A stretch of 64,000 bases of DNA from Shewanella dokdonensis. Lineage in GTDB: Bacteria; Pseudomonadota; Gammaproteobacteria; Enterobacterales; Shewanellaceae. The translations under genes and the position numbers were made by a program. How positions within the stretch are numbered: the first letter of the stretch is position 1; the number at the start of each line of letters is the position of its first letter. The stretch spans positions 2,356,001 through 2,420,000 of the forward strand of contig NZ_CP074572.1 of the NCBI RefSeq assembly GCF_018394335.1, written 5' to 3'. Under the pieces are notes generated by a model. It did no database searches. It had not been told where the DNA came from and saw nothing but the letters and a program-made list of their open reading frames with translations. Shown here one piece after another: positions 32,651-63,606 of the stretch.

Positions 32651-32663
32651 CGGGAGGCCGACG

Positions 32664-33236
32664 ATGAGCAAAAGATATGTCATGGTGCATGATGAAAACA
32701 AGTGCATCGGCTGTCAGGCGTGCAATGTTGCCTGCCGCAGTGAAAACCAAGTGCCAGAAGGCGTCACCCGTCTGCAAGTTAGGGTCGAAGGCCCATTCGG
32801 TGACGTGCCTTTATTGCATTTCAAATATAACCGGGTGTCTTGTCAGCAATGTGAAGACGCGCCTTGCGTTAAGGTGTGCCCCACTGGGGCGGCATATGTC
32901 ACTGCCGATGGTATCGTGTCGATTAAACAAGATAAGTGCGTTGGCTGCCAGTATTGTATCGCTGCCTGCCCTTACAAAGTGCGCTTTATCAATCCGCTCA
33001 GCCACACCGCTGAAAAATGTAATTTCTGTGCCGATACCCGGCTAGCGCGCGGCGAACAACCGGCCTGTGTCACCGTGTGCCCCACTAATGCACTGGTGTT
33101 TGGCGATGCCAATGATCCTCATAGTGAAGTGAGCCAACTGCTGAACAGCGCGCCAACTTACCGCGAAAAAGTCCATCTTGGTACGCAACCAAGGGTTTAC
33201 CGTATTCCTGCCCGCAAAGGAGGGATTGAAGCATGA
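32664..33236 (+). CDS. psrB: 4Fe-4S ferredoxin subunit PsrB/PhsB
   Basis: 190-residue electron-transfer subunit with four cysteine clusters: CIGCQACNVAC, CQQCEDAPCVKVC, CVGCQYCIAAC and CNFCADTRLARGEQPAC...C. It passes electrons from the quinol-oxidising membrane subunit to the molybdoenzyme. It has no signal peptide, which fits co-export with the Tat-dependent catalytic subunit. It starts 13 bases after psrA with GGGAGG upstream. Confidence 0.92.
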   Translation: MSKRYVMVHDENKCIGCQACNVACRSENQVPEGVTRLQVRVEGPFGDVPLLHFKYNRVSCQQCEDAPCVKVCPTGAAYVTADGIVSIKQDKCVGCQYCIAACPYKVRFINPLSHTAEKCNFCADTRLARGEQPACVTVCPTNALVFGDANDPHSEVSQLLNSAPTYREKVHLGTQPRVYRIPARKGGIEA

Positions 33237-34171
33237 ACAATATCTGGGGTGATATGTCACAGTACAATCCTGTGACCTGGCATTGGGTGATTGCCGTATA
33301 CCTGTTTCTGGCCGGGCTTTCTGCAGGCAGTTTACTGATCGCCATTGTGATGCGCTGGGTCAAGGGTGACCGTGAGGAGAGTCCCATCCTCAAGGCCGCC
33401 GCACTCATTGCACCCGTGGCTATCTGTCTGGGGATGCTATGTCTGGTCTTTGACCTGACCCGGCCGTTCCATTTCTGGTTGATTCTTATCCACTATAACT
33501 TCACTTCGGTGATGTCTATCGGGGTGCTGGCGCTACTGGTCTTTATTCCATTGAGCTTCCTCTATGCGTTGGTGGTATTCCGTGGGCAACTGGCAGCTAT
33601 CGGTTTAGGTTTCCTTCAGGGGCTGGCCGATGTACTGAATGGTCTCAGAAAACCAATTGAAACCTTGTTGTTTGCGCTGGCGGTGATCGTGGGTGCTTAC
33701 ACTGGTTTCTTGATCTCAGCGATGAATATCTATCCGATGCTCAATACTGCAATTTTGCCAGCGCTGTTCTTGGTGTCAGGGATTTCTGCTGGTGCGGCCG
33801 CCAATGCTGTCGTTGCATTGCTGTTGTTCAAAACCCCGGCGCATGATCATGAGCTTGGTCGCCTGCATGGGATTGAACTGCCCGTTGTTGGCATTGAGAT
33901 TCTGTTCCTGTTTATGCTGTTTTGTGGCCTGTACTTCAAGGGTGGCGCCGCAGCGCTGGCGTTGGCATCGCTGACAACTGGCACTTGGGCGGCAGTATTC
34001 TGGACGCTAGTAGTAGCGGTTGGTTTTGGGGTTCCGCTGTTATCATTGCTGTTACCGGCACCGCAACGTCATGGCAAAGGCGTGATGTTGTTAGGGGCGC
34101 TGTGTAGCCTAACCGGGGTGCTGGCACTAAGACACTTCATCCTGTATGCCGGTCAAAGTTACCTTGGCTAA
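33233..34171 (+). CDS. psrC: NrfD-type quinol-oxidising membrane subunit PsrC
   Basis: 312 residues with about eight to nine transmembrane segments. The NrfD signature region is WHWVIAVYLFLAGLSAGSLLIA near the N-terminus, followed by LTRPFHFWLI near residue 80. NrfD/PsrC proteins oxidise menaquinol and anchor the FeS and Mo subunits; the Salmonella PhsC alternative is a diheme cytochrome b and looks different. The start overlaps the psrB stop by 4 bases. A strong terminator follows. Confidence 0.92.
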   Translation: MNNIWGDMSQYNPVTWHWVIAVYLFLAGLSAGSLLIAIVMRWVKGDREESPILKAAALIAPVAICLGMLCLVFDLTRPFHFWLILIHYNFTSVMSIGVLALLVFIPLSFLYALVVFRGQLAAIGLGFLQGLADVLNGLRKPIETLLFALAVIVGAYTGFLISAMNIYPMLNTAILPALFLVSGISAGAAANAVVALLLFKTPAHDHELGRLHGIELPVVGIEILFLFMLFCGLYFKGGAAALALASLTTGTWAAVFWTLVVAVGFGVPLLSLLLPAPQRHGKGVMLLGALCSLTGVLALRHFILYAGQSYLG

Positions 34172-36852: not shown

Positions 36853-38012
36853 ATGACAGTACGGAAAATGGCCACTATCGCTGTCCGTCAGGGTATTGAG
36901 TCCGATAGCCAGCATGGTGCAGTGGTTCCGCCCATCTATCTTTCGACCAACTATGCTTTTGACGGCCATAAGCAGCCACGGCAGTTTGATTACAGCCGTT
37001 CCGGTAATCCCACCCGCAATATTCTCGGCAATGCCATTGGTGAGCTGGAACAAGGGTGCCCAGCGGTGATCACTGCCAGCGGCATGGCAGCCGTGACTTT
37101 GGTGGTCAGCCTGTTGGGGCCAGACGACCTGCTGGTGGTGCCTCACGACTGTTACGGTGGTTGTTATCGACTGTTTACCAATCTGGCGAAAAAGGCCAGT
37201 TCCAGTTGGCTGTGGTAGATCAAACCGACACCGAAGCATTGCAGCAGGCGCTTGCCCGTAAACCTAAAATGGTGTGGCTTGAAACTCCATCAAATCCTTT
37301 GCTGCGCGTCATTGATATAGCCGCCGTGGCCGCAACCTGTAAAAAAGTGGGCGCGCTGCTGGTGGCCGATAATACTTTCCTGTCACCCGCGCTGCAGCAG
37401 CCATTACAGTTGGGGGCCGATATTGTGGTGCACTCCACCACCAAATATATCAATGGTCATAGTGACGTCATCGGTGGTGCGGTAATCGCCAAAGATCCAG
37501 CGCTGGCTGAACAGCTGCACTGGTGGTCTAATACGCTAGGGCTAACCGGTGGTGCTTTTGACAGTTATCTGACGTTGCGCGGTTTACGGACACTGGCATT
37601 ACGTATTCAGCAGCACCAGAGTAATGCCGCTAAAATCGTCGAACTGTTGCAACACAGTGCCCAGGTGCAGCAGGTGTATTATCCGGGATTACCAGAGCAT
37701 CCTGGTCATGCAATTGCGGCCAAACAACAGCAGGGATTTGGTTCCATGGTCAGTTTTGAACTGATAGGTGGCGATGCTGAAGTCACCGCATTTCTCGGTG
37801 CTTTACACTATTTTTCTGTGGCAGAAAGCCTCGGCGGTGTGGAGAGCCTGGTCGCCGTGCCCGCCACCATGACTCACCGGGCGATGGAGCCCGCTGCTCG
37901 CGCCGAAGCGGGTATTAAAGATACACTTATTCGCTTGTCTGTTGGCATTGAAGATCCGCAGGATCTGTTGGACGACATTGCTGCGGGTTTAGCCGCAGTT
38001 GCCGCTTGTTGA
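36853..38012 (+). CDS. metB: Cystathionine gamma-synthase MetB (frameshifted)
   Basis: PLP enzyme joining activated homoserine and cysteine to cystathionine in methionine synthesis. About 386 residues after adding one A to the run at 37189-37193 (LAKKGQFQLAVVDQ). Motifs: YSRSGNPTRNILGNAIGELE near residue 53, ASGMAAVTLV, and the PLP lysine in HSTTKYINGHSDVIGGA near residue 197. ESLGGVESLVAVPATMTHR and the C-terminal IRLSVGIEDPQDLLDDI are intact. It is followed by metL after 18 bases, as in the classic metBL operon. Confidence 0.93.
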
Positions 38013-38030
38013 GTTGGGGAGCATTGATTG

Positions 38031-40423
38031 ATGGCACGTAGTCACTTACATAAATTTGGTGGTAGTAGTCTTGCCGATCCTGACTGTTACCGGCGGGTGG
38101 CCCACATCCTGCTGACCCACGGGCGGCCTGATGATCTGATAGTGGTTTCTGCCGCAGGCAAAACCACTAACTTCCTGTACAAACTGCTGGCACTGCGTGA
38201 GCAAGGCCAACTGTGGCAGGAAGAATTGCAGGTGCTGATGAGCTATCAGCAAAACCTGATTGAGCAGTTATTGAGTAACTCACAGGCAAGGCAGTTGCGG
38301 GAACGCTTAGCCAATGATCGCGCCACGCTGATGAGTCTGCTGGCGCTGGATATACGTAGCGACTATCAGTGCAACCAAGTGGTGGGTTTTGGTGAGCGTT
38401 GGTCAGCCCGGCTGATGGCGGCATTGTTACGCGAATCTGGCGTGGCCGCCAGCAACATTGATGCGCGCGGTCTGCTGGTTGCCGATGAAGCCGCCGTGCC
38501 GAAAATCCGTGTCGAAGAATCCCGCGCCAAGGTGCAGCAAATGCTGCAACAACACCCCGATGAACGGCTGGTGGTCACCGGTTTTATCTGCGCCAATCCG
38601 GCCGGAGAGATGTTACTGCTGGGGCGTAATGGTTCTGACTTCAGTGCCACCTTGATTGCCAGTCTGGCCGACATTGATCGGGTAACAATTTGGACTGACG
38701 TTGAAGGGGTGTTTAACGCCGATCCTAACAAAATTCAGGACGCCAGATTACTGCAAAGCATGTCGCTGGCAGAGGCTGATCGGTTGGCACGGCTAGGTTC
38801 CCCGGTATTGCATTCCCGCACCTTGCAACCGCTGTATAACACGCAAGTGAGTTTGGCGGTGCGTTCCAGTTATGCGCCGCAAACCGATTTTACGCTGGTG
38901 GCGCCGCACAACGATGTTGCCAGCGCACCGGTTGTGACTAGCCTCGATGAAGTGCTGACGGTTACGCTGCAACTGCAATCCTCATGGGAAACACTGGCCG
39001 AAGCGTTAGAACATGCCGGGTTGCAACCCTTAGCACATTGGTCGTTGGGTAAACAGAAACATGAATTGGCATACACACTGGAATCCCGTAAACAGCTGTT
39101 GGCCTTGTTACAGCAACTCACTGACACGCTAGGGATCAGCGATATTGAAAGCCATACCGGTTTTGGGTTGGTGGCGCTAGTGAGTGCCGCAGCAGCACAA
39201 TATCGGCGCAGTTTTGCACGGTTGCTGAGCCGCGAAGCCCGGCCTTTGTATCAGGATGCTTTAAGTCTGGTGACCTTAGTGCCACTACAACAGGTGGCCT
39301 TGCTGACCCAGAAAGTCCATCGTCGCTGTGCGGGCCCGCGCAAACGTGTCGGCATCATTTTGCTGGGCGTTGGTAATATTGGTGAAGCCTGGGTGACATT
39401 GTTTGGCAAATCTGCCGCGCAACTCAACCGCCAGTTGGAAGCCGATGTGGCGCTAGTGGGATTGGCTAGCTCCAGCAAAGCTCTGTTTTGCAATGCGGGT
39501 ATCGCAGTCACCGATTGGCAGGCACGCTTTGAGGCAGAAGCCACACCGTGGCAATACGAGCATCTGTTTGAACAAGCGGATGCGCTTTCATGTGATGAAT
39601 TGATTGCACTCGACATCAGCGCCAGCGCTAGTTTGACCTTGCAGTACCCGGAGTTTTTGCTCACGGAATTCACATGGTCAGCGCTAACAAACTGGCCGGT
39701 TCTGGGCCATTGGCCTTCTATCGTGAACTGAAGCAGATGTTGGGAAATCGCCGTTTGTTCTGGCGCTACAATGCCAGTTGCGGCGCTGGCTTGCCGGTGC
39801 AGCATGCGCTCAATGATCTGCATAATAGCGGCGATCAGGTGCAGGCAGTGGGCGGGATCTTTTCCGGCACACTCTGCTGGTTGTTTGAAAACTACGATGG
39901 GGTGCGACCATTCTCGGAACTGGTGTTAGAAGCCAAAGCGCTGGGTATTACCGAACCAGACCCTCGCGATGATCTTTCTGGCCGCGATATGCAGCGCAAG
40001 CTGTTAATTTTGGCTCGGGAAATCGGCCTGGAACTGGAGCTGGAAGATATCCGCCTCAGTTCATTGGTGCCCGCACATCTGGCCGAGATTTCAACCGCGG
40101 ATTTCCTGCAACGGCTACCTGAGCTGGATAGCGAACTGGCACAGCAGTATGCAGCGGCCAATGAGCAGGGCAAGGTGCTGCGTTATGTGGCGGCATTGGA
40201 ACGCACCGAGCAGGGCGCCAACGCTGAAGTGGCACTGCAATGGGTGGAACCGAGCCATCCCTACGCTAACCTGACACCTGGCGATAACGTGTTTGTTATC
40301 CGCAGCGCGTTTTATCAGGGCAACCCGCTGATCATTCGCGGCCCCGGCGCTGGCCGTGAAGTCACCGCCGCGGCAGTGCAGTCAGATCTCGTACAGATCT
40401 GCCGCGATTTGTTAGAAGATTAA
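38031..40423 (+). CDS. metL: Bifunctional aspartokinase II / homoserine dehydrogenase II (frameshifted)
   Basis: Catalyses the first and third steps of the aspartate pathway to homoserine. Starts at ATG 38031 with GGGGAG upstream. Kinase domain: HKFGGSSLADPDCYRR at the N-terminus and LLGRNGSDFSATLIA near residue 200. ACT-like middle, then the dehydrogenase domain with GVGNIGEAWVTLFG (NAD(P) site) and, after repair, HMVSANKLAGSGPLAFYRELKQ. One G is missing near 39659 (TTTTTGCTC should read TTTTTGGCTC). Repaired length is about 797 residues. It is the second gene of the metBL operon. Confidence 0.93.
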
Positions 40424-51510: not shown

Positions 51511-52074
51511 TTATGGTTGCTCCTCAGTTATTTGTTGTGCCAGCTGTTGCAGGTATGGCGCCACGCTGGCATCCGCCCAGTCAACATACCCGCGCACAAA
51601 GCCAACGAGTTCTCCATTACCATTCAGTAAAAATGTGGCCGGGACGACATCGGTGGGCAGAATGTCTGCCACTTGCTGCTGTGGGTCGAGCCATAACTGT
51701 GGAAACTGTAATTGGTGCTGTTGCAGAAATGGCGGCACTAAGGTCAGATCTTCATCAATCGATAGTGGCACTACGCTGAGCTGCTGTGGATCGAGTTGCG
51801 GTATTAACTGTTGTAGATGCTGTAAGTCACGCACACACAAAGTGCACCAGGTGGCCCACAGACTGAGCACTGTCATGCGCCCATTATTTTCGGTGAATGT
51901 ATGGGGTGTGCCTTGCAAGTCTCTCAGCGTAATCGGTGCTAAAGGTTGCGGGTGTTGCAGCGTTACCAACTGCCGCAGCACCATAGGCTTGGGCAGCGTA
52001 TGCGCGTTGGCTTGTGCGTAATCTACCGACAGTAGCCATAGCAGTAGCAATAGCCAACTTAAATAACGTTTCAT
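51511..52074 (-). CDS. Periplasmic thioredoxin-like protein of the sulfite-reductase heme lyase
   Basis: About 187 residues starting at MKRYLSWLLLLLWLLSVDYAQA, a signal peptide; the ATG overlaps the stop of the CcmH-like gene. TlpA/DsbE fold with active site LWATWCTLCVRDLQHL (CTLC) and a later cis-Pro region (VVPATFLLNGNGELVGFVRGYVDW). It would keep the apocytochrome or CcmH cysteines reduced for heme attachment. It forms one operon with the CcmF-like and CcmH-like genes, divergent from sirA. Confidence 0.88.
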   Translation of the reverse strand: MKRYLSWLLLLLWLLSVDYAQANAHTLPKPMVLRQLVTLQHPQPLAPITLRDLQGTPHTFTENNGRMTVLSLWATWCTLCVRDLQHLQQLIPQLDPQQLSVVPLSIDEDLTLVPPFLQQHQLQFPQLWLDPQQQVADILPTDVVPATFLLNGNGELVGFVRGYVDWADASVAPYLQQLAQQITEEQP

Positions 52075-52457
52075 GCGGTTTTTTCTCCTTGACGGCGCCC
52101 GAGTACTAACAAGCTGCCGCAGCCCAGAACCAGCAAGACCGGCGCTATCCATAGCAGTGCTGTTGCTGGCGTCAGTGCCGGTTGGTAGCGAATGCGTTCA
52201 CCATAGCGCTGCACCATGAAGTCGATGATCTGCTCTTGGCTTTGGCCTTGTTGCAGCATTTGGTAAATCTGTGCTTTCAGCTCTGCGGCAATAGGCGCTT
52301 CCGATTCATACAGACTCTGGTTGATGGCGGCTGGGCAACGTAACGCCTTGGCAATGTCATTGCTGAGGCGGATGAGGTTTTGCTCGGCACTTGCTAGCGG
52401 CAAACTCAATAGCAGTGCCAAGGCCAGCAGTAGCGATAGCCGCTTATGGTGACTCAT
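52071..52457 (-). CDS. sirF: CcmH/NrfF-like heme lyase subunit lacking the second Cys
   Basis: About 128 residues. It has a signal peptide (LSLLLALALLLSLPLASAE), a CcmH helical domain and a C-terminal membrane helix (ALLWIAPVLLVLGCGSLLVLG). The conserved motif is normally LRCPxCQNQS; here it reads LRCPAAINQSLYES, so the second Cys of the pair is missing. The rest (EAPIAAELKAQIYQMLQQGQSQEQIIDFMVQRYGERIRYQP) is canonical. The start overlaps the CcmF-like stop by 14 bases. The symbol follows the Shewanella sir locus and is tentative. Confidence 0.85.
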   Translation of the reverse strand: MSHHKRLSLLLALALLLSLPLASAEQNLIRLSNDIAKALRCPAAINQSLYESEAPIAAELKAQIYQMLQQGQSQEQIIDFMVQRYGERIRYQPALTPATALLWIAPVLLVLGCGSLLVLGRRQGEKTA

Positions 52458-54348
52458 AGGCCACTCCTTGGTGCATGGTTTTATGGGGGATGACAATCGG
52501 CAACCGCCGATAAATGCGCGGGCAACAGGCGCACAAAGCGGCTGGCAGCAGTAACAATCCGCCTAGCCACAGCCAACTGATCAAGGGTTTGATGCTGATA
52601 CGCACCAGATAAACGCCGGGTTCCAACTCTTGCCCAAGCGAGACATAAAAATCTTGTAGCCAGCCGTGGTATACCGCCGCTTCGGTGACTTCCATACCGT
52701 TGCTGCGAAAGGTCTGTCGCTGTGGCTGTAACTTAGTGAGCAACTGCTCTTGGCCGCGATACAGTTCTATTTCTGCGGCAATGGCGTGATAAGCCCGTTG
52801 CTCCAGCGTCAAGGTATCGCGGTAGACAAAACTGTAGCTGCCAAAGCTGCTATGCAGCGTGCGTCCCTGATCGGCACTCATGCGTAGCAGCGCTTCGGTT
52901 TCGTATTGACTACTGCAAGTGCCACCCAAAATTGCAATGGCGACCGCCACATGGGCAATGCGTCCAGCAATGGCGGGGTGCTTGGCATGTGGGTAAAACC
53001 ACAGTTGGATTTCTGCCAGCAATAACCAACTGGCGGCGGCAATGCCCAGAAAAGTAAACCCTGGGCTGTGACCCGGAAACAGCAACACCCACAGCCCACT
53101 GAGTAGCAGCCAAGGCAGTAGCAGCCAAGCATTGCCATGTCGTCGCACAAAGCTCCAGCCCATCAGCAATGTCATCAGCAACAGTAGCGGGACAAAAATC
53201 ATATTGAAATAGGGCGCACCGACCGACAAGGTGCCTAATCCCAACATGTCACAGAACAATGGATATAGCGTTCCAAGCAGCACGGAAAATGCGGCTGCCA
53301 GCAGTAATGCAATGCCTAATAGCAACGGAATTGCAGCGGCTTCGCCATAGCATTTCAGCTGTGAGCAGCGTCTGCCATAGAGCCATAACGCAGGTAGCAG
53401 AAACAACGCCATCAACAGCAACAGTAATGCGCCTCTTCCGCTGTTGCTGGTAAACGCATGGACTGATTGCACAATCCCTGAACGCACCAGAAAAGTGCCC
53501 AGCAGACAACTGCCAAAAGTGATGATCCCCAGCAGCAGGCTGAGCCGTGCCAGTTGTGGTGACGGCTGTTTGGGCAACAGGCAATGTAACAGGGCGCTGC
53601 TCAACAGCCAGGGAATAAACGCGGCATTTTCTACCGGATCCCAGAACCACCAACCACCCCAGCCCAGTTCAGTGTAAGCCCACCAAGCACCCAAGACATT
53701 CCCCGCACTGAGGAATAACCAGCTCAGCAAACTCAATTGTCTGAGCGCGCGCCACGCCTGATGAAATCTGCCATCCAGTAAAATAGCCACGCAGATGGCA
53801 AACAGCGCGCCTAGCAGTGCATAGCCCGCAAATAACAAAGGGGGATGCAGGATCAAACCGATATCTTGCAGAATCGGGTTGAGATCGCGCCCCTCTGGTG
53901 GCACGGCGGGCAACAGTCTGGCAAAGGGATTAGCGGTTAGCAGTATCACTATTCCAAATGCACCACTTAACGCCGCCAAGATCGCCAGCGCTTGCCGTTG
54001 TAGTTGTGGCAACTGGCTGCGCCGAAAATACTGTAGTAACCCGCCAAGCAGCAGTAACCACAGTAGCAATGAACCTTCGTGACTGCCCCAAACGGCGGCC
54101 ACCTTATACAGTAGCGGTAGCTGGCTGTTGCTGTTATCGGCAACATAACGCACTGAAAAATCATCAGTAATAAAGCAGTAACTCAGTAACAGATAACTGG
54201 CCGTCAGTGTCAGCGTGGCACTATCGGCCAGCAACTGACTCAGCCTGAAGTTGCTGCGGTTGTGTGGTAGCCATAGCAGACTGCACGCTGTGCCCCACAT
54301 CAGCGCTGTCGCCAGGATCAGTAATAAGTGTCCGGTTTCCGCCGTCAT
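52444..54348 (-). CDS. sirE: CcmF/NrfE-like heme lyase for the sulfite reductase
   Basis: 634-residue membrane protein with about 14-15 helices. The WWD heme-handling motif is TELGWGGWWFWDPVENAAFIPWL near residue 225. Conserved His residues are visible in WGSHEGSLLLW, DIGLILHPPLLFAGY and SGIVQSVHAF. In Shewanella a dedicated lyase of this type attaches the heme at the CX15CH site of SirA, which the general Ccm system does not handle. Position divergent from sirA supports this. A small hairpin precedes its ribosome site. The symbol is by homology of position and is tentative. Confidence 0.9.
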   Translation of the reverse strand: MTAETGHLLLILATALMWGTACSLLWLPHNRSNFRLSQLLADSATLTLTASYLLLSYCFITDDFSVRYVADNSNSQLPLLYKVAAVWGSHEGSLLLWLLLLGGLLQYFRRSQLPQLQRQALAILAALSGAFGIVILLTANPFARLLPAVPPEGRDLNPILQDIGLILHPPLLFAGYALLGALFAICVAILLDGRFHQAWRALRQLSLLSWLFLSAGNVLGAWWAYTELGWGGWWFWDPVENAAFIPWLLSSALLHCLLPKQPSPQLARLSLLLGIITFGSCLLGTFLVRSGIVQSVHAFTSNSGRGALLLLLMALFLLPALWLYGRRCSQLKCYGEAAAIPLLLGIALLLAAAFSVLLGTLYPLFCDMLGLGTLSVGAPYFNMIFVPLLLLMTLLMGWSFVRRHGNAWLLLPWLLLSGLWVLLFPGHSPGFTFLGIAAASWLLLAEIQLWFYPHAKHPAIAGRIAHVAVAIAILGGTCSSQYETEALLRMSADQGRTLHSSFGSYSFVYRDTLTLEQRAYHAIAAEIELYRGQEQLLTKLQPQRQTFRSNGMEVTEAAVYHGWLQDFYVSLGQELEPGVYLVRISIKPLISWLWLGGLLLLPAALCACCPRIYRRLPIVIPHKTMHQGVAYESP

Positions 54349-54759: not shown

Positions 54760-56791
54760 ATGAAACCATGGAACCCCAAAACAGTTGCTGGTGCACTGTT
54801 TTGCCTGGGCACTGCTATAGCAGTTGGCCCAGTGATGGCGAACTCTGACAGTAAACCGGGACATAACAACAAGAGCATGAGCGAAGCCGCGCTGGAAGTG
54901 ATTGCTCACCCGGATCTGACAGAACCCACCCGCGGCGTGAAAACGCTGGACGATTATGTAGTGCAGGAAAAGGAGCTGTTCGACTTTTTGTTTGAGCACC
55001 ATCCTATCTTTAAATATGCCGCAGAAGGCCGGATAAAGGGCAATATCAGGTATCTGACCGCGGCGAAGAGTACCTGGAAGCGGGCGGCAGTGCCAAATAC
55101 GCCAAACGTGTCGGGCATCCTGCCGCCGTGCAATATCGTCTGGGGGCTAAGTCGATTCTGGATTATCCCAACAAGTTTGTTGGGCCGGAAAAATGCGGCG
55201 AGTGTCACCAAGTGCAGTATGAAAAGTGGAAACGTTCACGTCACGCCCAATCAATCCGTTTCCCAGGTGAACATCCAGAAGTGGATAACGATCTGAAGAA
55301 AAAACTGTACGGGTCGCAGGCATCAATTCTGGCGGACGGTATCACCCCTGACACCATCTATGCCACCATTGGCACACCACGTACCAAATACGGTTATATC
55401 GATAACTGGCTGGTGCGCGGTTCCTACCATATTGAAGGCGGTTTGCTGAAAGACGGTACTGGCACCTTGGTGGCCGGTGGTAACCAGTTCTCCCGTGGCT
55501 GGGCTGAGTGGTTGACCCCAGAAATGGCCAAAAAGATCAAAAAAGTGATTCCTGATTTCCCAACCGAAATGAAAGAGTTCGGCGGCAGTGGTTCGCACCA
55601 ATGGGGGATGACTTCCTACGGCGCCAGCTATGGCAAGAACTTCCTGTTCCAGCCTGCCAGTTCCTACTGCGAGGTGTGCCACACCTTCAAATTTGACTTC
55701 AAAACTAAAGATGAATTTTTTGCCGCACTTGGCGATGCCAAGAAACTGCAAGAACACACCATCAGCCGTGGTATCGCTTGTGAAGAATGTCATGGCGCCG
55801 GTGGTCATCTGGCCGGCGGTATTGGCGGCGGAATGCCTTCCAACTGCGAACGTTGTCACCAGCGCTTCAATTACATAGATGCGCAGGCCGAAACTCCACA
55901 GGGCAAAGACAAACTGGAATATGCCTTTAACGCCAAGTTCAAGTCTGCTTGTCCTTCCTGTGGTACTGAAGGGGCGCAGATGTTTATGTCTGAACATTAT
56001 GACAAAGGCATGCGCTGCTCTACCTGTCACGACCCACACGAAGTGACCGCTAACGACTGGAAATCGGGTTTCACCGTGCCAGGGCTGAAGAAACAGTGTG
56101 TGGATTGCCACGAAGCGCAGGCGGAAATGGCGCGTAATACTACAACTCACAGCAAATCTAGCTGTACTGCTTGCCATATGCCGAATATGGGTAGCTGTGA
56201 AAACTTCACTGCAATTCAGTATCCAGACCATGCCGGTTTCGATGCGGTGCGTAAGTCTCACCTGTGGAAAATTGACATCAGTCCAGATCGCAAGAGTCTG
56301 AATCCGCCAGAGGGCCAGCCACGTAAGAGCACTACCAAAGGCTGGACCATTGCCAAGGATGAAAACGGTCACGGTTATATCGACCTGATGTGGAGCTGTG
56401 CGCGTACCTCGGTTTCTGACCACGACGTGGTAGACAACAAAGGCTGTCATAGCCAGTTCCAGTCCAACATGGGCGCTTCACTGCAGTTCAAAGATCAACA
56501 GCAGATCTACGGCAAAGTGATGGCTTGGCAGACCCCGGTAAAAGACACCTTTGCCAAAGTGGAAAGTGCGGTCAAACAGGTCAATCGCCAGTTGCAGAAA
56601 GCCAATCTGTCAGTGGCTGACAAGACTCAGGTGTTGTTGCTGACTGAAAAAGCCAGCGATGCACTGGAGCTGGTCAGAAAAGACGGTTCCTGGGGGTTCA
56701 CGCACCGCGTTACACCCGTCAGCGTCTGGATGCCGCATTGACCTACGTCACACAAGCGCAGGCCATTATCAAGGGCAGTAGCAAGCTGTAA
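54760..56791 (+). CDS. sirA: Octaheme sulfite reductase SirA (MccA family; two frameshifts)
   Basis: Periplasmic terminal enzyme that reduces sulfite to sulfide. After adding one base at 55035-55037 (AAA) and one at 56692-56696 (GGGGG) the product has about 677 residues. A signal peptide ends near VMANSD. Seven CXXCH sites are visible: CGECH, CEVCH, CEECH, CERCH, CSTCH, CVDCH and CTACH. An eighth atypical site spaces Cys and CH by 15 residues (CARTSVSD...DNKGCH), the SirA hallmark CX12NKGCH. A CPSC segment between hemes four and five may help bind copper, since MccA is a heme-copper enzyme. The GAGGAGAG ribosome site supports the start. Confidence 0.92.
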
Positions 56792-56801
56792 ATGTCAAAG
56801 C

Positions 56802-56836
56802 CAGGCTTCCGGTGTGATGCCGGAAGCCTGAGGAGG
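56802..56836 (+). promoter_or_regulatory. Hairpin fused to the rhodanese ribosome site
   Basis: CAGGCTTCCGG (56802-56812) pairs perfectly with CCGGAAGCCTG (56820-56830), 11 bp. The AGGAGG ribosome site starts at the next base (56831). It separates sirA from the downstream genes and may stabilise or partly terminate the sirA message. Confidence 0.7.
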
Positions 56837-56844
56837 ACGGAATC

Positions 56845-57263
56845 ATGAGCAAGTGCTGTGGTTGGGTATTACTGCTGGGGCTGACCGCCATGAATGTGTG
56901 GGCGGGGGCGGTGGTGAACCGCGTCCAGCAGTGCGCTATGACCAAGAATTAAACCAGATTTCGATGCGGGAAGCTGAGTCGTTGCTGGGGCAACCCGGCG
57001 TGCATTTTTACGATGTGAATACTCTGGAAATCTGGGCCGATGGTTATATCCCCGGGGCGGTGTTTTTTAATGTGCGTGACTGGAAAAAACTGCTGCCGGA
57101 AAACAAGCAGGCAACGCTGGTGTTTTACTGCGTTAACCGCCTGTGTACCTCTAGCGTGCTAGCGGCCAGAGCGGTGATGAAACTGGGTTATACCGATGTA
57201 CGACAAATGCCAGATGGGATCTACGGCTGGCGCATCTCCGGGCGACCGGTAGCCAAACCCTGA
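56845..57263 (+). CDS. Periplasmic rhodanese-like protein (frameshifted)
   Basis: About 139 residues. ATG at 56845 after AGGAGG begins a signal peptide (WVLLLGLTAMNVWAG); the frame then shifts at the G-rich stretch 56900-56912 and one added G restores it. Rhodanese fold: ISMREAESLLGQPGVHFYDVNTLEIWADGYIPGAVF, then the active-site loop FYCVNRLCTSSVLAARA. This has the catalytic Cys, and a second Cys five residues later. A role in sulfur transfer or in handling sulfite-pathway intermediates is likely but unproven. Second gene of the sir operon. Confidence 0.82.
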
Positions 57264-57311
57264 TCTCGTTTTTAACGAGCAATAACATGGCAACAAGCAG
57301 GAGTCATTACT

Positions 57312-58046
57312 ATGTGGCGTAACAGAATATTTTGGCTGAGTGGCCTGGCATTATGCGTCAGTGTCGCCAGCTATGCAGGTGAACTGAAAACCCAACAGGA
57401 CAAAGAGTCTTACAGCATGGGACTGTCCTTGGGAAATTACCTGTCCAACGAGCTTTATCAACAGCAACAACTGGGAGCCAAGGCCGATGTGGCACTGGTG
57501 ATTGAAGGTTTCGTCGATGCACTGAAAAACCAGGGCAAACTGACCGATGATGAAACCGTTAACCTGTTGAACCAACGCGCAGAAACCTTAAATCAGGCAC
57601 GCGCTGCCCAGCGTAAACAAGTGGCGGAAAACAATCGCACCGCCGCCGCGGCCTTCTTTGAAAAAAATGCCAAGGTTGCCGGTGTTACCACTCTCAAAAG
57701 TGGCTTGCAGTATCAAATGCAGCAGCAAGGCACTGGCGATGTGCCCAAGCCAGAAGATGTCGTGACCGCCAAATACCGTGGCACGCTGCTGGATGGTACT
57801 GAATTTGAAAACAGCGGTGAGCAACCAGTACGTTTTGCGCTGATGACCATGATCCCAGGATTAGAAGAGGGGATCCGCCAATTACACACTGGTGGTAAAG
57901 CTCGCTTCTTTATTCCGGCGGCACTGGCATACGGAGCCGATGGTGTTGGCGAGGTGCCACCGCAAGCGGCGCTGATCTTCGATGTAGAGCTGGTCAAAGT
58001 GGAAAAACCGGCCAAGAGTCATGGCGGCATGATGCCGGGCATGTAA
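57312..58046 (+). CDS. FKBP-type peptidyl-prolyl isomerase, periplasmic
   Basis: 244 residues with signal peptide (LSGLALCVSVASYAG). N-terminal dimerisation helices (residues about 25-125, like FkpA/Mip) are followed by the FKBP domain: VTAKYRGTLLDGTEFENS, MIPGLEEGIRQLHTGGKARFFIPAALAYGADGVG and PQAALIFDVELV. The tail is Gly/Met/His-rich (SHGGMMPGM), which could bind copper. In Shewanella sulfite loci an isomerase of this kind follows the octaheme gene and probably helps it fold. Confidence 0.93.
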   Translation: MWRNRIFWLSGLALCVSVASYAGELKTQQDKESYSMGLSLGNYLSNELYQQQQLGAKADVALVIEGFVDALKNQGKLTDDETVNLLNQRAETLNQARAAQRKQVAENNRTAAAAFFEKNAKVAGVTTLKSGLQYQMQQQGTGDVPKPEDVVTAKYRGTLLDGTEFENSGEQPVRFALMTMIPGLEEGIRQLHTGGKARFFIPAALAYGADGVGEVPPQAALIFDVELVKVEKPAKSHGGMMPGM

Positions 58047-58058
58047 CAGGAGACGGCG

Positions 58059-58736
58059 ATGGAAACTGCTCTGCTGCTGTTAATACTGCTGTTGCCGCTG
58101 CTGCTGTGGTGGTTGGCGCGGCGTCATAGTGGCACTCAAGAACCCAGTTTCGGGGGCTTGGGGCTGGTGCTCTGCATCAGTATTTGTAGCGCCTTGGCTT
58201 ATGTTCAACTGGGGGCTTTTGGCCAATGGCAGCAGGCTTATGTCGATCAGCACATCGACTTGCAACTGGCCGGGCGCATCACCGAGGCCCGGCGACAGTT
58301 AGCTAAAACACCGCAGCAACCGCAACTGATGCTGGAGCTGGTGGCGCTATACAACCAAGGCGGGCTCTACCCAGAAGCGGTGGCGCTGCAACAGCAACTG
58401 ATTGAGATCCAAGGCCAACAACCTGAGCTGTTAGCGCAGTTGGCGGAGCTGCAATATTACCGCGATCAGCGGCAACTCAGCGACAGTACCTGTGAGTTGC
58501 TGGGGCAAGTCTTCCGTCAACAACCGGCACAGCTGCAAGCTCGTATGTTGCTGGCGAACGCGCTGTTTCAACGTCAGCAATATTTGCCGGCAATTGCGCA
58601 GTGGCAGTGGCTGTTAGCGCAGCCACAGTATGCCGATTACCAACAGCCGTTGCAGACGGCGATTGAGCATGCCCGTAAGTTGTTGCGCCAATCATCCAAC
58701 CGCACGCTGGTGGCCGACAACCTCAGACAAGGATAA
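58059..58736 (+). CDS. CcmI/NrfG-like TPR protein
   Basis: 225 residues. Two N-terminal membrane helices (LLLILLLPLLLWWLA and LVLCISICSALAYVQL) precede a periplasmic domain of tetratricopeptide-like helices (residues about 70-210), very rich in Gln and Leu. This layout is that of CcmI/NrfG, which presents apocytochrome to the heme lyase. It probably completes the dedicated lyase encoded on the opposite strand. Confidence 0.8.
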   Translation: METALLLLILLLPLLLWWLARRHSGTQEPSFGGLGLVLCISICSALAYVQLGAFGQWQQAYVDQHIDLQLAGRITEARRQLAKTPQQPQLMLELVALYNQGGLYPEAVALQQQLIEIQGQQPELLAQLAELQYYRDQRQLSDSTCELLGQVFRQQPAQLQARMLLANALFQRQQYLPAIAQWQWLLAQPQYADYQQPLQTAIEHARKLLRQSSNRTLVADNLRQG

Positions 58737-58746
58737 GGACAATACT

Positions 58747-59241
58747 ATGATCAAATGGTTAGTTTTGGCGGCTGTGTTGTTATGCGGCTGCAGCCCAGCA
58801 GAACCGCAAAATCCCTATATGCCTGAAGCCATTCAGGCTCATGACCGTTGCCACCTGTGTGGCATGGTGATCCAACAACATCCTGGCCCCAAGGGCGAAC
58901 TGTTGATGAGTGACGGCTTAGTGCCCAAGTTTTGCTCGACCCGCGATATGTTCAGCTTTGCTTTACAGCCAGAAAACCAGCGGCGCATCAAGGCGATGTA
59001 TGTACACGATGCTGGGCGTACCGATTGGGAACATCCAGACGACAGTGCCTTTATCGATGCATCCCAAGCTTGGTATGTCTATGGTTCGCGCCGTAAAGGT
59101 GCCATGGGGCCGTCATTAGCACCATTCTCCAATCGCGAGGCCGCCGAGGCTTTTGCCGCGTCTTGGGGCGGAAAGGTGTTGAGCTATCAAGAGGTTAACC
59201 TCAGTTTGTTGGAGGGCGCATTAATGCGCTCAGGCAGATGA
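58747..59241 (+). CDS. nosL: NosL-like copper-binding lipoprotein
   Basis: 164 residues. A lipobox (LLCGC near residue 15) marks a lipoprotein. The NosL core is visible: DRCHLCGMVIQQHPGPKGELLMSDG, then a Cys in PKFCSTRDMF, and the C-terminal AFSNREAAEAFAASWGGKVLSY-like segment. NosL binds Cu(I) and helps assemble the copper centre of N2O reductase. No nosZ is near; here it follows sirA genes, so it probably delivers copper to SirA. Its stop overlaps nosD by 4 bases. Confidence 0.9.
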   Translation: MIKWLVLAAVLLCGCSPAEPQNPYMPEAIQAHDRCHLCGMVIQQHPGPKGELLMSDGLVPKFCSTRDMFSFALQPENQRRIKAMYVHDAGRTDWEHPDDSAFIDASQAWYVYGSRRKGAMGPSLAPFSNREAAEAFAASWGGKVLSYQEVNLSLLEGALMRSGR

Positions 59242-60521
59242 TGCGTTGGGCGCTTATCGGATGCTTATGCTGTTGCGGCTGGTGCCAAGCGGCCAACTGG
59301 CAAGCACAGCCTGGGCAAGCACTGCAGCCATTGCTGGACAGCACCGCTGCCGGTGACACCCTAGTGTTGCCCGCCGGGCGCTATCCAGGGCCACTGACGA
59401 TTTCTCACCCGCTCATCATACATGCGGTGCCCGGTGCGACGTTATTTGCGGATGGCAGTGGCAGTGCTTTGCTGATCAGCGCCGCAGATACGCAGGTCAG
59501 CGGCTTGACCATCCGTAATTGGGGTAGTGATGTTTTCAGCTTAGATGCCGGCGTGCAATTGTTGCCGGGGGCCGACCGTGTGCGCCTGAGCCGCTTGACC
59601 TTGCAAGGGCCAGGTTATGGCATCTATGCCGAAAAACTCATCGCACCGGTGATCGAAAATTGCCGCATTCTGGGCGAACACCGCCTGTATGTGCTGGATC
59701 GTGGTGATGGTATCGCCATGCGTTACGTCGAGGCGCCGCAGCTTCATCACAACCATATGCAGGATGTGCGCGATGGCATCTATCTGGAAGATGTCAGCCA
59801 CAGCCGTGTTAGCCACAACCTGTTCCAAGGGCTGCAATATGGCCTGCACTATATGTATACCCACGATGACTTAGCCTGGCAGAACCGTGCCGAAGCGGTC
59901 AGTGGCGGTTATGCCTTGATGAGTTCCAGAGCCATTACCTTAAAGGACAACCAAGTCAGCGAGGCGGTGGACTTTGGCATTTTGCTGAATGTTACCCGCG
60001 ATAGCCAACTGCTGGGCAATCGGGCGGTACAGGTGCGTAACTCCCGAGGTAAAGCAGAAGATGGCAATCTGGGGAAGGCCCTGTTTATCTATGATGCGCA
60101 CGACAATGTGATCCGCGGTAATGATTTTGCGAACAGTGATATCGGCATCAGCGTGGCCCTGGGTGCCGAGGGCAATCACTTCTACGGCAACAGTATTAGC
60201 AACAACCAGATCCAGGTGCGCTATATCGGCACTCAAGCACTGGAATGGAGCCATGAACAACGCGGCAATTACTGGAGCAGCTATCAGGGTTGGGATCTCA
60301 ATGGCGATGGTGTGGGTGAGCAGCCCTATCAGCCCAACGATGCGCTGGATAGATTGCTGTGGTTGTACCCATCAGCCCAGCAACTGCTTGAGAGCCCGAT
60401 TGTGCAGCTACTGCGTTGGCTCAGCAGCGCGCTGGCATTGCAACCTAATGTGGGTATCACCGATTCGTATCCATTGATGCAACCCGCACCGTGGCAGGAG
60501 ATAAATGATGCAGACCATTAA
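59238..60521 (+). CDS. nosD: NosD-like periplasmic beta-helix protein
   Basis: 427 residues with a signal peptide (LIGCLCCCGWCQAANW). The body is a right-handed beta-helix of repeating turns (residues about 50-340), e.g. HHNHMQDVRDGIYLEDVSHSRVSHNLFQGLQYGLHYMYTHDD and RGNDFANSDIGISVALGAEGNHFYGNSI. The C-terminal region GNYWSSYQGWDLNGDGVGEQPY is characteristic of NosD. NosD works with NosF and NosY in maturation of copper enzymes in the periplasm. Start and stop overlap both neighbours. Confidence 0.93.
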   Translation: MMRWALIGCLCCCGWCQAANWQAQPGQALQPLLDSTAAGDTLVLPAGRYPGPLTISHPLIIHAVPGATLFADGSGSALLISAADTQVSGLTIRNWGSDVFSLDAGVQLLPGADRVRLSRLTLQGPGYGIYAEKLIAPVIENCRILGEHRLYVLDRGDGIAMRYVEAPQLHHNHMQDVRDGIYLEDVSHSRVSHNLFQGLQYGLHYMYTHDDLAWQNRAEAVSGGYALMSSRAITLKDNQVSEAVDFGILLNVTRDSQLLGNRAVQVRNSRGKAEDGNLGKALFIYDAHDNVIRGNDFANSDIGISVALGAEGNHFYGNSISNNQIQVRYIGTQALEWSHEQRGNYWSSYQGWDLNGDGVGEQPYQPNDALDRLLWLYPSAQQLLESPIVQLLRWLSSALALQPNVGITDSYPLMQPAPWQEINDADH

Positions 60522-61401
60522 TGCCTGCGAGCTGGCGATTTGCCTCGGCGGTCAGCCGCGATTACAACAGGTCAGCTTGCAGTTACACAGTGGTGAGCTG
60601 TTGGCGCTGCTTGGGCACAACGGTGCCGGTAAATCCACGTTAATCAAACTGTTATTAGGGCTGTATCAGCCAGATAGTGGTTCGCTAACCGTTTTGGGGG
60701 ATAAACCCGGCAGACAGCCGTTGCAGGTGGGTTATCTGCCTGAAAATGTCAGCTTTTATCCACAGATGCAGTTGGGTGAACTATTGCAGTATTTTGCGGA
60801 TCTGAAAGGGATTAATCGCCGTCGAGTCAAACAGTTACTGGCAGAGTTTGGCTTGCAGCACTGTGCCAAACAACCATTACGCGTATGTTCCAAAGGGGAG
60901 CGGCAACGGCTGGGGTTAGCTCAGGCATTATTGAGTCAGCCAGCGCTGTTGCTGCTGGATGAACCCACGGTTGGGCTCGATCCGTTAGCCTCAACTTTTA
61001 TGTACCAGACCTTGCAAACGCTGCGCTCCCAAGGTTGCAGCATAGTCGTCTGCACCCATGAACTGGCGCTGGTGGAACCTGTGTTGGATCAACTGCTGAT
61101 ATTAGAGCATGGGCGAGTGGCCGCCAGCGGGACATTGCCAGCGCTGCAACAGCAGGCGCAACTGCCGTGGCAGATCCGGCTGCCATCGGGTCATGCTTGG
61201 CATACCGATCCGCTGTTGGCGCCTTGGCTGCGTGAGCAGCAGTTACTCTTTCCGGCATCATTACTGCCGCAATTAAGCCAGCGACTGACTCAGCATTGGC
61301 ACTGTGTTGATTACCAGTTGCAGCCACCGGATCTGCGTCAGCTCTTCTGCCACTTTTTAGCTGGCACAGATGCAAGGGCAACACTGGCGGAGGCGGTATG
61401 A
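60505..61401 (+). CDS. nosF: NosF-like ABC transporter ATPase
   Basis: 298 residues. Walker A GHNGAGKST near residue 38, ABC signature CSKGERQRLGLAQALL (a Cys replaces the usual Leu-Ser start), Walker B ALLLLDEPTVGLDP, and switch His in VVCTHELALV. It powers the NosY permease. The first of two ATGs (60505, 60508) is inside the nosD gene, so the genes are translationally coupled. Confidence 0.93.
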   Translation: MMQTINACELAICLGGQPRLQQVSLQLHSGELLALLGHNGAGKSTLIKLLLGLYQPDSGSLTVLGDKPGRQPLQVGYLPENVSFYPQMQLGELLQYFADLKGINRRRVKQLLAEFGLQHCAKQPLRVCSKGERQRLGLAQALLSQPALLLLDEPTVGLDPLASTFMYQTLQTLRSQGCSIVVCTHELALVEPVLDQLLILEHGRVAASGTLPALQQQAQLPWQIRLPSGHAWHTDPLLAPWLREQQLLFPASLLPQLSQRLTQHWHCVDYQLQPPDLRQLFCHFLAGTDARATLAEAV

Positions 61402-62177
61402 AAAATATGGTCTGTGTTATCGCATGGCGGGAATTACAGGAAGCTCGTCGCAGTCGCTGGCTATGGCTGGCGGCCTGCATCTTTGCCTTGCTAACCCTGG
61501 CCGTCACCTTTGGCAGCAGCGCTGTCAGTGGGCAACTGCGGTTACCGCCATTGCCACAACTGATGAATTCTCTGGTGACACTGAGCTGTTTTCTGCTGCC
61601 GCTGTTGGCCTTGTTGCTGGCGGCCGATGCGTTTGTTGCTGAAGCGGAAGCTGGCACTATGTTGCTGATGTTGACGTATCCCATCAGCAAGGCGCAGTGG
61701 CTGGCGGGTAAACTGTTAGGGCAGGGCAGCGCTTTACTGTTGGCTTGTCTGGTGGGCTACGGGCTGCTGTGGTTGTTACCATTATGGTCGTCCATTCATT
61801 GGCAACAGCTGTGGCGGCCATTGTTAACCTTGCTTTGGAGCGGCTGGCTACTGACGCTTATCTGTCTGCTGGCGGGTTACTGGGTCAGCCTGCATGTGCG
61901 CAGCCGCAACCAGGCATTGGCCTGGGTACTGCTGCTCTGGTTATTACTGGTGTTGCTGTACGATCTGGCCTTGCTGATTTTAGCCGTGGCTAGCGACAGC
62001 CATATGGCACCAGAACTGCTGCAATGGCTGCAACTGCTGAATCCCGCCAGTGGCTTTCGATTACTCAATCAACACCCTCGCCAGTTGCCGTCATTACTGC
62101 TATACCTGCAACCTTGGTTGTGGCTTGCCGGGTTATGGTGGCTGGCGCTAAGAGCATTTCGCCAGCGGCAGTTGTGA
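61398..62177 (+). CDS. nosY: NosY-like ABC transporter permease
   Basis: 259 residues with six hydrophobic segments. It starts VIAWRELQEARRSRWLWLAACIFALLTLAV, the ABC-2 permease pattern seen in NosY, and has the loop LAADAFVAEAEAGTMLLMLTYPISKAQWLAGKLLGQ. It overlaps nosF by 4 bases. In the nos system the transporter is thought to supply sulfur or support copper-site assembly; here it likely serves the sulfite reductase. Confidence 0.9.
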   Translation: MKNMVCVIAWRELQEARRSRWLWLAACIFALLTLAVTFGSSAVSGQLRLPPLPQLMNSLVTLSCFLLPLLALLLAADAFVAEAEAGTMLLMLTYPISKAQWLAGKLLGQGSALLLACLVGYGLLWLLPLWSSIHWQQLWRPLLTLLWSGWLLTLICLLAGYWVSLHVRSRNQALAWVLLLWLLLVLLYDLALLILAVASDSHMAPELLQWLQLLNPASGFRLLNQHPRQLPSLLLYLQPWLWLAGLWWLALRAFRQRQL

Positions 62178-62321: not shown

Positions 62322-63606
62322 ATGATGCAACCGCTCACTCCCTATTTGGCGCTCGATAACAAGGCTCAGCAGTTACTGGATCAGCGGGATAACTCGGTGA
62401 TCCCATTGTCTTATTCGGAAGCGCAGATCCTGCATTGTTTGCTGGAAAAGCCTGAGGCGATTTTCAGTAAAGAGGCATTGCTGGCCGTCGGTTGGCCCGA
62501 CCGGGTCGTGGCTCTGACTTCTCTGACGCAATGTATTAGTACCTTGCGGAAAAAGCTGGAACCTTATCCCGAGATCCAGCTAAAGACGGTGGCGCGCCGT
62601 GGTTATGAACTGACCATCTCCGCTAGTTCTCATGTGCATATGCTGGCGCTCAACGATGGTCGGGCGATCCGCAAAGCATTGGTGGGTGTGTCCTGGTCGG
62701 TGAAACTGTTTGGTATCACCTTGCTGACGCTGGTTTTATGTCTGTGGTGGTACTTCAGTGATGCCCATGTCATGCTCAAACATCTGCATCATTGGCCAGG
62801 CTGATAGGCAAATTCTGCTGAATGTCGGTGGTTTTCACGGCATGGCACGGCTGTATCATCTCGACAGTGTTACCTCGTTACATCCGTCAATGTGGCAGAA
62901 GCATCTGGCACCGGAAGGTAACCAAATTGAGGGGATGACCCACTTCGGTGCTTTTGCCGCAACAGATGGCAATAACTATTCCTTCACTATCTGCCCCGGT
63001 GCTGATACCGGTGAATGTGCTGGCGAGGGCATTATCAATATCACTGCGATCAAGGCCGAGCCTGCCGGGCTGAATATGCAGCAGTTTATTCCGCTCAGTA
63101 AGCAGATGGAGCAGCGCATTCGCTATAACCGGATTATTTTGCCGCCAGCTGAAAGTAACGCTGAAGTTACTGAACATAACTACCATGCCGATATCTATTT
63201 CCCGGTGGCGGGCGAACTGTTGGTACGTACCGATCTCAGCATGTCGCTGGTGTATGAAAATAGTGATAGCGGCCAGTTCTATTTTTCTGCCTGTCTGACC
63301 GATCAGAACTGCATCACTACCCCTATCAAATACCAGTTGCGTGGCCGTTTTCAGCAGTATCGTAGTGAAATTTCCGGCCAGCCAGCGGATGTGTTCCAAG
63401 TGACAGTGACCCAAAAAGAGCTGATTAAGCCAGATAACGTCAGTCACTCAGCAATGGATTTTTACCGGGAGATCCGCAAACACGATATCCGCGATGAAGA
63501 GCTGTATTTTTACCGTATCTATAGCGACCAGAAAACCGCCGTATGGCTGGTGCCATTGATGGGCAATATTGTGGCTTGGACGACTTACAACCAGGTGAGT
63601 CTCTGA
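62322..63606 (+). CDS. ToxR/CadC-like membrane transcriptional regulator (frameshifted)
   Basis: About 427 residues if one base is removed near 62796-62797 (CC to C). An N-terminal OmpR-type winged helix is present: VIPLSYSEAQILHCLLEKPEAIFSKEALLAVGWPDRVV, then TSLTQCISTLRKKLE and VARRGYEL. One membrane helix follows (LFGITLLTLVLCLWWYF, near residue 130). The remaining 280 residues are periplasmic and unfamiliar, with two cysteine pairs (CPGADTGEC, CLTDQNC). Unlike other breaks in the window this one needs a deletion, so a true two-gene arrangement is not fully excluded. AAGGAGTT precedes two tandem ATGs. It may sense a periplasmic signal for the sir operon. Confidence 0.75.

Follow-up and report, generated by a model that had tools for sequence, protein, structure and literature searches.

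A NosLDFY-type gene set associated with the sulfite reductase gene sirA in Shewanella dokdonensis and its relatives

Gene content of the sir locus

The window analyzed in this study, a 64,000-nucleotide stretch of Shewanella dokdonensis (contig NZ_CP074572.1, positions 2,356,001 to 2,420,000), carries at its right end a sir locus in which homologues of nosL, nosD, nosF and nosY follow the respiratory sulfite reductase gene sirA. Homologous proteins serve nitrous oxide (N2O) reductase, the product of nosZ. Our results revealed that strong NosD matches within the genus occurred only together with SirA or nosZ, and sequence comparison makes it very probable that the set in the window is a NosLDFY lineage that has come to serve SirA.

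The genes from sirA to nosY lay on the plus strand, the heme-lyase-type genes on the minus strand, and a regulator gene was located downstream. sirA (54760..56791, +) encodes an octaheme sulfite reductase of the MccA type; it matched the MccA structure 4rkm and its frame was broken at two places. It was followed by genes for a rhodanese-like protein (56846..57263, +; Pfam Rhodanese, 39 bits; frame broken near the start), an FKBP-type peptidyl-prolyl isomerase (57312..58046, +; Pfam FKBP_C and FKBP_N) and a TPR protein resembling the apocytochrome chaperone SirG (58059..58736, +), for which the TPR matches were below the curated cut-offs and the NrfG match was weak, though its position was that seen in relatives. 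Thereafter came nosL (58747..59241, +), encoding a Cu(I) chaperone lipoprotein, nosD (59238..60521, +), encoding a periplasmic beta-helix protein, nosF (60505..61401, +) for an ABC ATPase and nosY (61398..62177, +) for an ABC-2 type permease. The frames overlapped by 4 bases between nosL and nosD, 17 between nosD and nosF and 4 between nosF and nosY. This arrangement, with the four nos genes behind sirA, rhodanese, FKBP and TPR genes in overlapping frames, had been proposed in an earlier sequence-only reading and was borne out by Pfam, by solved-structure matches and by the coordinates. The extent then proposed, 54760..62177, covered these genes; however, the locus was longer. The Pfam scan placed heme lyase genes close to sirA at 51511-54348, namely those for a SirH-like thioredoxin-like protein (51511..52152, -; Pfam AhpC-TSA/Redoxin, at the equivalent position in relatives), a SirF-like CcmH protein (52071..52496, -; Pfam CcmH, 115.5 bits) and a SirE-like heme lyase of the CcmF/NrfE kind (52444..54348, -; Pfam CcmF_C and Cytochrom_C_asm, with NrfE models scoring best but below their cut-offs). 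Behind nosY, a sirR-like regulator gene with a ToxR-type DNA-binding domain (62322..63606, +; Pfam Trans_reg_C) appeared as two overlapping open pieces. Promoter- and terminator-like sites at the locus were no more frequent than expected by chance and thus uninformative on transcription. No NosR was found among the operon products in the Pfam scan, a genome-wide nosR search not having been made, and a search for the NnrS family, run with no positive control, gave no match.

All four Nos proteins were assigned with scores far above their Pfam cut-offs: 166 bits for NosL (cut-off 24), 145 for NosD (23.6), 115 for the ABC ATPase at the place of NosF (25) and 103 for the ABC-2 permease at the place of NosY (27.2). 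Their top solved matches were the NosL chains of 7znq/7osf (E 1e-40) and, in the 7o0y complex, NosD (7o0y_A, E 8e-93), NosF (7o0y_B, E 2e-56) and NosY (7o0y_D, E 7e-36, the sole solved match). Each part of the window's set was therefore homologous to its counterpart in the NosLDFY system of N2O reductase from Pseudomonas stutzeri (7o0y, 7znq). The lipobox Cys and CXM motif of NosL were kept, as were the Walker A and B motifs of NosF, whose signature reads SKGERQR. Differences from that system included the lack of nosZ, the separate clade of the window's NosD, the leading place of nosL and a switch at some NosD positions. In alignments of 47 sir and 33 nosZ-type NosLs, neither the lipobox Cys nor the CXM Met varied, while the CXM Cys was found in all 47 sir proteins and in 97% of the nosZ-type ones. 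The last place of the NosF signature, SKGE in the window, was Met in 93% of sir rows and in all nosZ-type rows.

The genome of the window contained a single NosD match, which reached 367 bits with TIGR04247 against a cut-off of 300. A sir NosD thus passes the NCBI threshold for the name 'nitrous oxide reductase family maturation protein NosD', which is a trap for annotation. In fact, nosL, nosD, nosF and nosY of S. oneidensis MR-1 are treated as nitrous oxide genes in one paper (PMC2886065); these would be the sir genes.

The open piece of SirA at 55128-56741 matched MccA of Wolinella succinogenes (4rkm, 4rkn) over 524 residues of 4rkm (E 1e-198), and the heme motifs comprised seven CXXCH and one CX15CH, as in MccA. 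The copper ligands of MccA, which we take to be Cys 399 and Cys 495 (chain positions 411 and 507), were Cys in 57/57 rows of an alignment of MccA with the SirA of the window and 55 further proteins taken from named loci. In MccA two cysteines hold the copper between them, with no sulfide cluster at the site. Of the 57 rows, 19 did not show CX12[NA]KGCH exactly, yet both of its Cys columns held Cys in at least 90% of the rows. The earlier description of SirA as a homologue of the heme-copper enzyme MccA agrees with the 4rkm match and the retention of both copper cysteines.

Association of NosLDFY with SirA

No nosZ was detected in the genome of the window by a search that was positive in 12/127 Shewanella genomes, so that the absence claimed in the sequence-only reading held and a nosZ hidden elsewhere in the genome was rejected. 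An earlier search of the same genome, carried out with no positive control, was also negative, and nosZ was absent from 14/14 Shewanella, Ferrimonas and Paraferrimonas-type genomes tested by name. Among the 127 Shewanella genomes sampled, SirA was present in 71, nosZ in 12 and a strong NosD in 76; PF05048 matches with E 3.5e-13 or worse were not counted as NosD, those listed being mostly open reading frames (ORFs) of about 880-920 aa. Altogether 101 strong NosD genes were found, with 86 near sirA (match starts 3.6-7.3 kb apart), 12 adjoining nosZ and 3 at no more than 2.6 kb from a contig start, where linkage is invisible. A strong NosD occurred in 70/71 SirA genomes, the exception (G342) being an assembly in 260 contigs, and in 0/50 genomes that had neither SirA nor nosZ. 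Where SirA and nosZ coexisted, which was the case in 6 genomes, each enzyme had a separate NosD (6/6). Fisher's test over the 115 genomes that lack nosZ gave a p value of 4e-32 with kinship ignored.

Two sirA matches were found in 24 genomes, 19 of which had two sir NosDs and 5 only one, and certain second sirA copies retained NosL alone. It is therefore probable that two SirAs can share a single NosDFY set, although some of these genomes are drafts. Tandem sir operons were seen among loci L021, L030, L033, L034, L037, L043 and L044, some Shewanella having two complete operons with NosLDFY in each, and two Ferrimonas had two SirA modules and one NosLDFY.

Beyond Shewanella, the set stood at sirA in Ferrimonas, Paraferrimonas and another genus of the family (G030). 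SirA was found in 8/295 genomes of the order sample. In the phylum sample NosD was present in 64/398 genomes, and 38 of the corresponding regions were fetched: 35 had a NosZ-like gene, one had sirA and two had neither (L155 and L186), and the idea of a further NosD client was rejected on this sample. L155 held an apparently orphan nosD-F-Y-L set with genes for glutaminase, a porin-like protein and others nearby, and no nosZ, sirA or recognized copper enzyme within the 11.5 kb fetched. L186 was divergent.

A comparison with the NosDs of nosZ operons, suggested earlier as a check, favoured the assignment to SirA, as the sir NosDs formed a clade of their own. In a quick tree of 95 NosDs, in which long branches including L015 and L057 were flagged, 46 sir NosDs were set apart by a branch of support 100. 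The NosDs linked to nosZ in Shewanella lay apart from them, among nosZ-linked NosDs of the same order. A careful tree was built from 63 of the 95 sequences after 32 were removed by hand (near-copies, a divergent group and the long-branched L015); its 26 sir rows grouped together with support 100/100, in 200/200 bootstrap trees, and the window NosD was placed outside the nosZ-linked NosDs with the same 100/100 support. The gene order also differed, being L-D-F-Y at sirA and Z-D-F-Y-L in the Shewanella nosZ clusters examined, in one of which the region was cut off and NosL was not seen.

Furthermore, SirA and NosD distances were correlated over 39 pairs (r 0.72), a value that 0/2000 permutations equalled. 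The pairs were sought among the 53 SirA ORFs from named loci that exceed 640 aa; shorter pieces of SirA, that of L054 for instance, were excluded. In 14 of the 53, no NosD came before the following SirA or the end of the locus: 6 belonged to Enterobacterales or Campylobacterota, 3 had NosL alone (the first copies of L025 and L048, and L061), 2 were upstream tandem copies (L043, L044) and 3 lay where a contig or locus ends (L022, L023 and the second copy of L048). A sir locus was also seen in a record titled Marinobacter nauticus (L049); its NosD pairs with that of Ferrimonas balearica, and the organism name may be wrong.

At the residue level, NosD positions 157, 200, 307 and 310 (window numbering) were switched, each side being more than 90% uniform in 46 sir and 42 nosZ-type rows. 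Residue 305 was His in 95% of the nosZ-type rows, and His was not the commonest residue in the sir rows. These positions are candidate sites for client choice.

The MccA relatives of Campylobacterota (L052-L056) differ from the window in that none had NosLDFY in the flanks examined. More broadly, no NosL, NosD, NosF or NosY was found in the flanks examined at the SirA/MccA loci of Leminorella, Budvicia, Helicobacter and Campylobacter, the neighbours of four loci having been scanned in part. Two scanned campylobacterotal loci had a heme lyase of the ResB/CcsA type, unlike the CcmF/NrfE-like one of the window.

Proposed function and alternative explanations

The sir locus, the copper-type genes in it and their association with SirA are already known. 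The operon sirAIGCDJKLM of S. oneidensis and its regulator SirR have been published (PMC6976685), and neither the word copper nor NosL occurs in the main text of that paper. The locus of strain MR-1 (sirEFH, sirAIGCDJKLM, sirR) resembles the window in its heme lyase genes, sirA, chaperone genes and downstream ToxR-type regulator gene, and differs in that the operon of the window lacks sirC and sirD. From the gene order in Shewanella sp. ANA-3 (L018), we infer that sirJKLM are homologues of nosL, nosD, nosF and nosY. The abstract of the 2011 SirA paper reportedly describes a ten-gene locus with copper transport proteins. We found no experimental test of sirJKLM in the open-access literature, which does not imply that none exists. 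The new elements here are the exclusivity count, the separate NosD clade, the co-divergence, the residue comparison and the lineages that lack the set; none of these was found in the open-access papers searched.

The nosL-nosD-nosF-nosY genes of the window probably constitute a distinct NosLDFY lineage that serves SirA, with copper as its putative cargo. The lipoprotein NosL would hold Cu(I) and hand it to NosD, which would be seated on the ATP-driven NosF/NosY complex. ATP hydrolysis would then switch NosD so that Cu(I) passes to SirA in the periplasm and occupies its two-cysteine site next to the active heme, at about the time when the dedicated heme lyase completes heme attachment. Copper as the cargo, SirA as the recipient and the order of hand-over are all modelled on the N2O reductase system. 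The NosL of Paracoccus denitrificans is a Cu(I)-binding protein, and the CuZ site is starved of copper when NosL is lost (PMC6530538). The sequence-only reading had proposed that the Nos-like set inserts copper or sulfur into SirA. Its assignment to SirA agrees with the linkage to SirA in a genome that hides no nosZ, with the clade of its own, with the co-divergence and with the copper cysteines of SirA; copper insertion itself is predicted, with copper as the likeliest cargo.

The literature ties NosDFY to one client, and whether its cargo is copper or sulfur is disputed. The extension of its role beyond N2O reductase, as claimed earlier, would take the form of a variant set apart by a separate clade and a different client. 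It is about an even chance that a NosLDFY lineage switched its client from N2O reductase, a Cu4S enzyme, to a heme c-copper enzyme, and that a few NosD positions (about 157, 200 and 305-310) perhaps determine which client is served. If so, the cargo of NosDFY is copper and not sulfur, and the complex is a machine for periplasmic Cu(I) loading that can be re-targeted; a sister set working on a copper enzyme that has no sulfide cluster would separate the copper idea from the sulfur idea.

Several observations weigh against SirA as a copper client of the set. The co-occurrence counts were uncorrected for kinship, and co-occurrence and co-divergence speak of joint inheritance, not of contact. The sir NosDs were diverged, with a mean identity of 49% versus 76% for SirA, and a Met present in 33/33 nosZ-type NosLs was found in 70% of sir NosLs and was replaced by Ala in the window. 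The enterobacterial and campylobacterotal SirA/MccA proteins keep the copper cysteines; however, NosL was missing genome-wide in 5/7 such genomes and NosD in 6/7, the NosD of the seventh lying within about 3 kb of nosZ. With NosL and NosD absent from most of these genomes, the SirA/MccA family does not depend on the set in general, and NosLDFY as a universal need of MccA-type enzymes was rejected. Copper can reach these enzymes another way, or it can be less critical there. Copper has been remarked in passing to be not crucial for sulfite reduction (PMC6703420).

As an alternative to copper loading, NosDFY might carry a sulfur species and work with the rhodanese in maturing SirA or in handling sulfur intermediates, whilst NosL alone deals with copper. 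A sulfur cargo has been proposed for NosDFY of the N2O system (PMC6530538), and the rhodanese gene adjoins sirA in the window and in relatives. However, the rhodanese domain accompanied SirA/MccA even at loci that have no NosL, NosD, NosF or NosY; therefore, the rhodanese and the Nos set do not travel as one unit. The gene of the Cu(I) chaperone NosL, moreover, stands directly 5' of nosD in an overlapping frame. The sulfur cargo is the weaker alternative because the MccA site contains copper and no sulfide cluster, and we regard it as unlikely.

Slightly less likely still is a general copper supply, or service to another cuproenzyme, by a set merely co-regulated with sirA. Nos-type copper proteins might indeed act on other periplasmic copper enzymes, but such a role fits poorly with the complete lack of strong NosD in Shewanella genomes that have neither SirA nor nosZ, and with the scarcity in the phylum sample of regions that have neither gene. 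That the set is a relic of a lost nosZ cluster appears very improbable, even though the genome has no nosZ, divergence was faster and some residues were relaxed. The large majority of SirA genomes in the genus retained the set next to sirA, the NosL and ATPase motifs were intact, and both the clade, apart from the Shewanella nosZ-linked NosDs, and the L-D-F-Y order set it off from nosZ clusters; on conservation, clade and gene order this origin was disfavoured.

Frame breaks and electron supply

The window has frame breaks in sirA, the rhodanese gene and the downstream regulator gene, whereas the same three genes were uninterrupted in S. fodinae KCTC 22506 (L014), with 678, 139 and 427 aa, respectively. 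This strain is the closest named relative: its best SirA segment was 100% identical, and the DNA identity was 87.6% across a 12.3 kb alignment of the sir locus, which makes the two close relatives though not certainly members of one species. The breaks are likely to be assembly (indel) errors in this one-contig assembly, because several other window genes, metabolic ones included, also appeared broken, such as those for a molybdopterin oxidoreductase and for an aspartokinase/homoserine dehydrogenase. The stretches concerned were 37056-40423, 54760-57263 and 62322-63606.

In most relatives the interval from the TPR gene to nosL holds sirC and sirD, the quinol-oxidase genes of the SirACD complex. 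Neither was present there in the window (58736 to 58747), in L014 or in two further loci (L016, L017), and the spacing suggests that they are missing too in 11 of the 20 SirA genomes with the closest SirA, for which it was checked. About 20 kb from sirA, at 30376-34171, the window carries a psrABC/phsABC-like operon for a molybdopterin subunit (in two open pieces), a 4Fe-4S protein and NrfD. In the regions compared, its NrfC- and NrfD-like proteins came closest to the SirC (49% identity) and SirD (47%) of Shewanella sp. ANA-3, and they might take the place of SirC and SirD.

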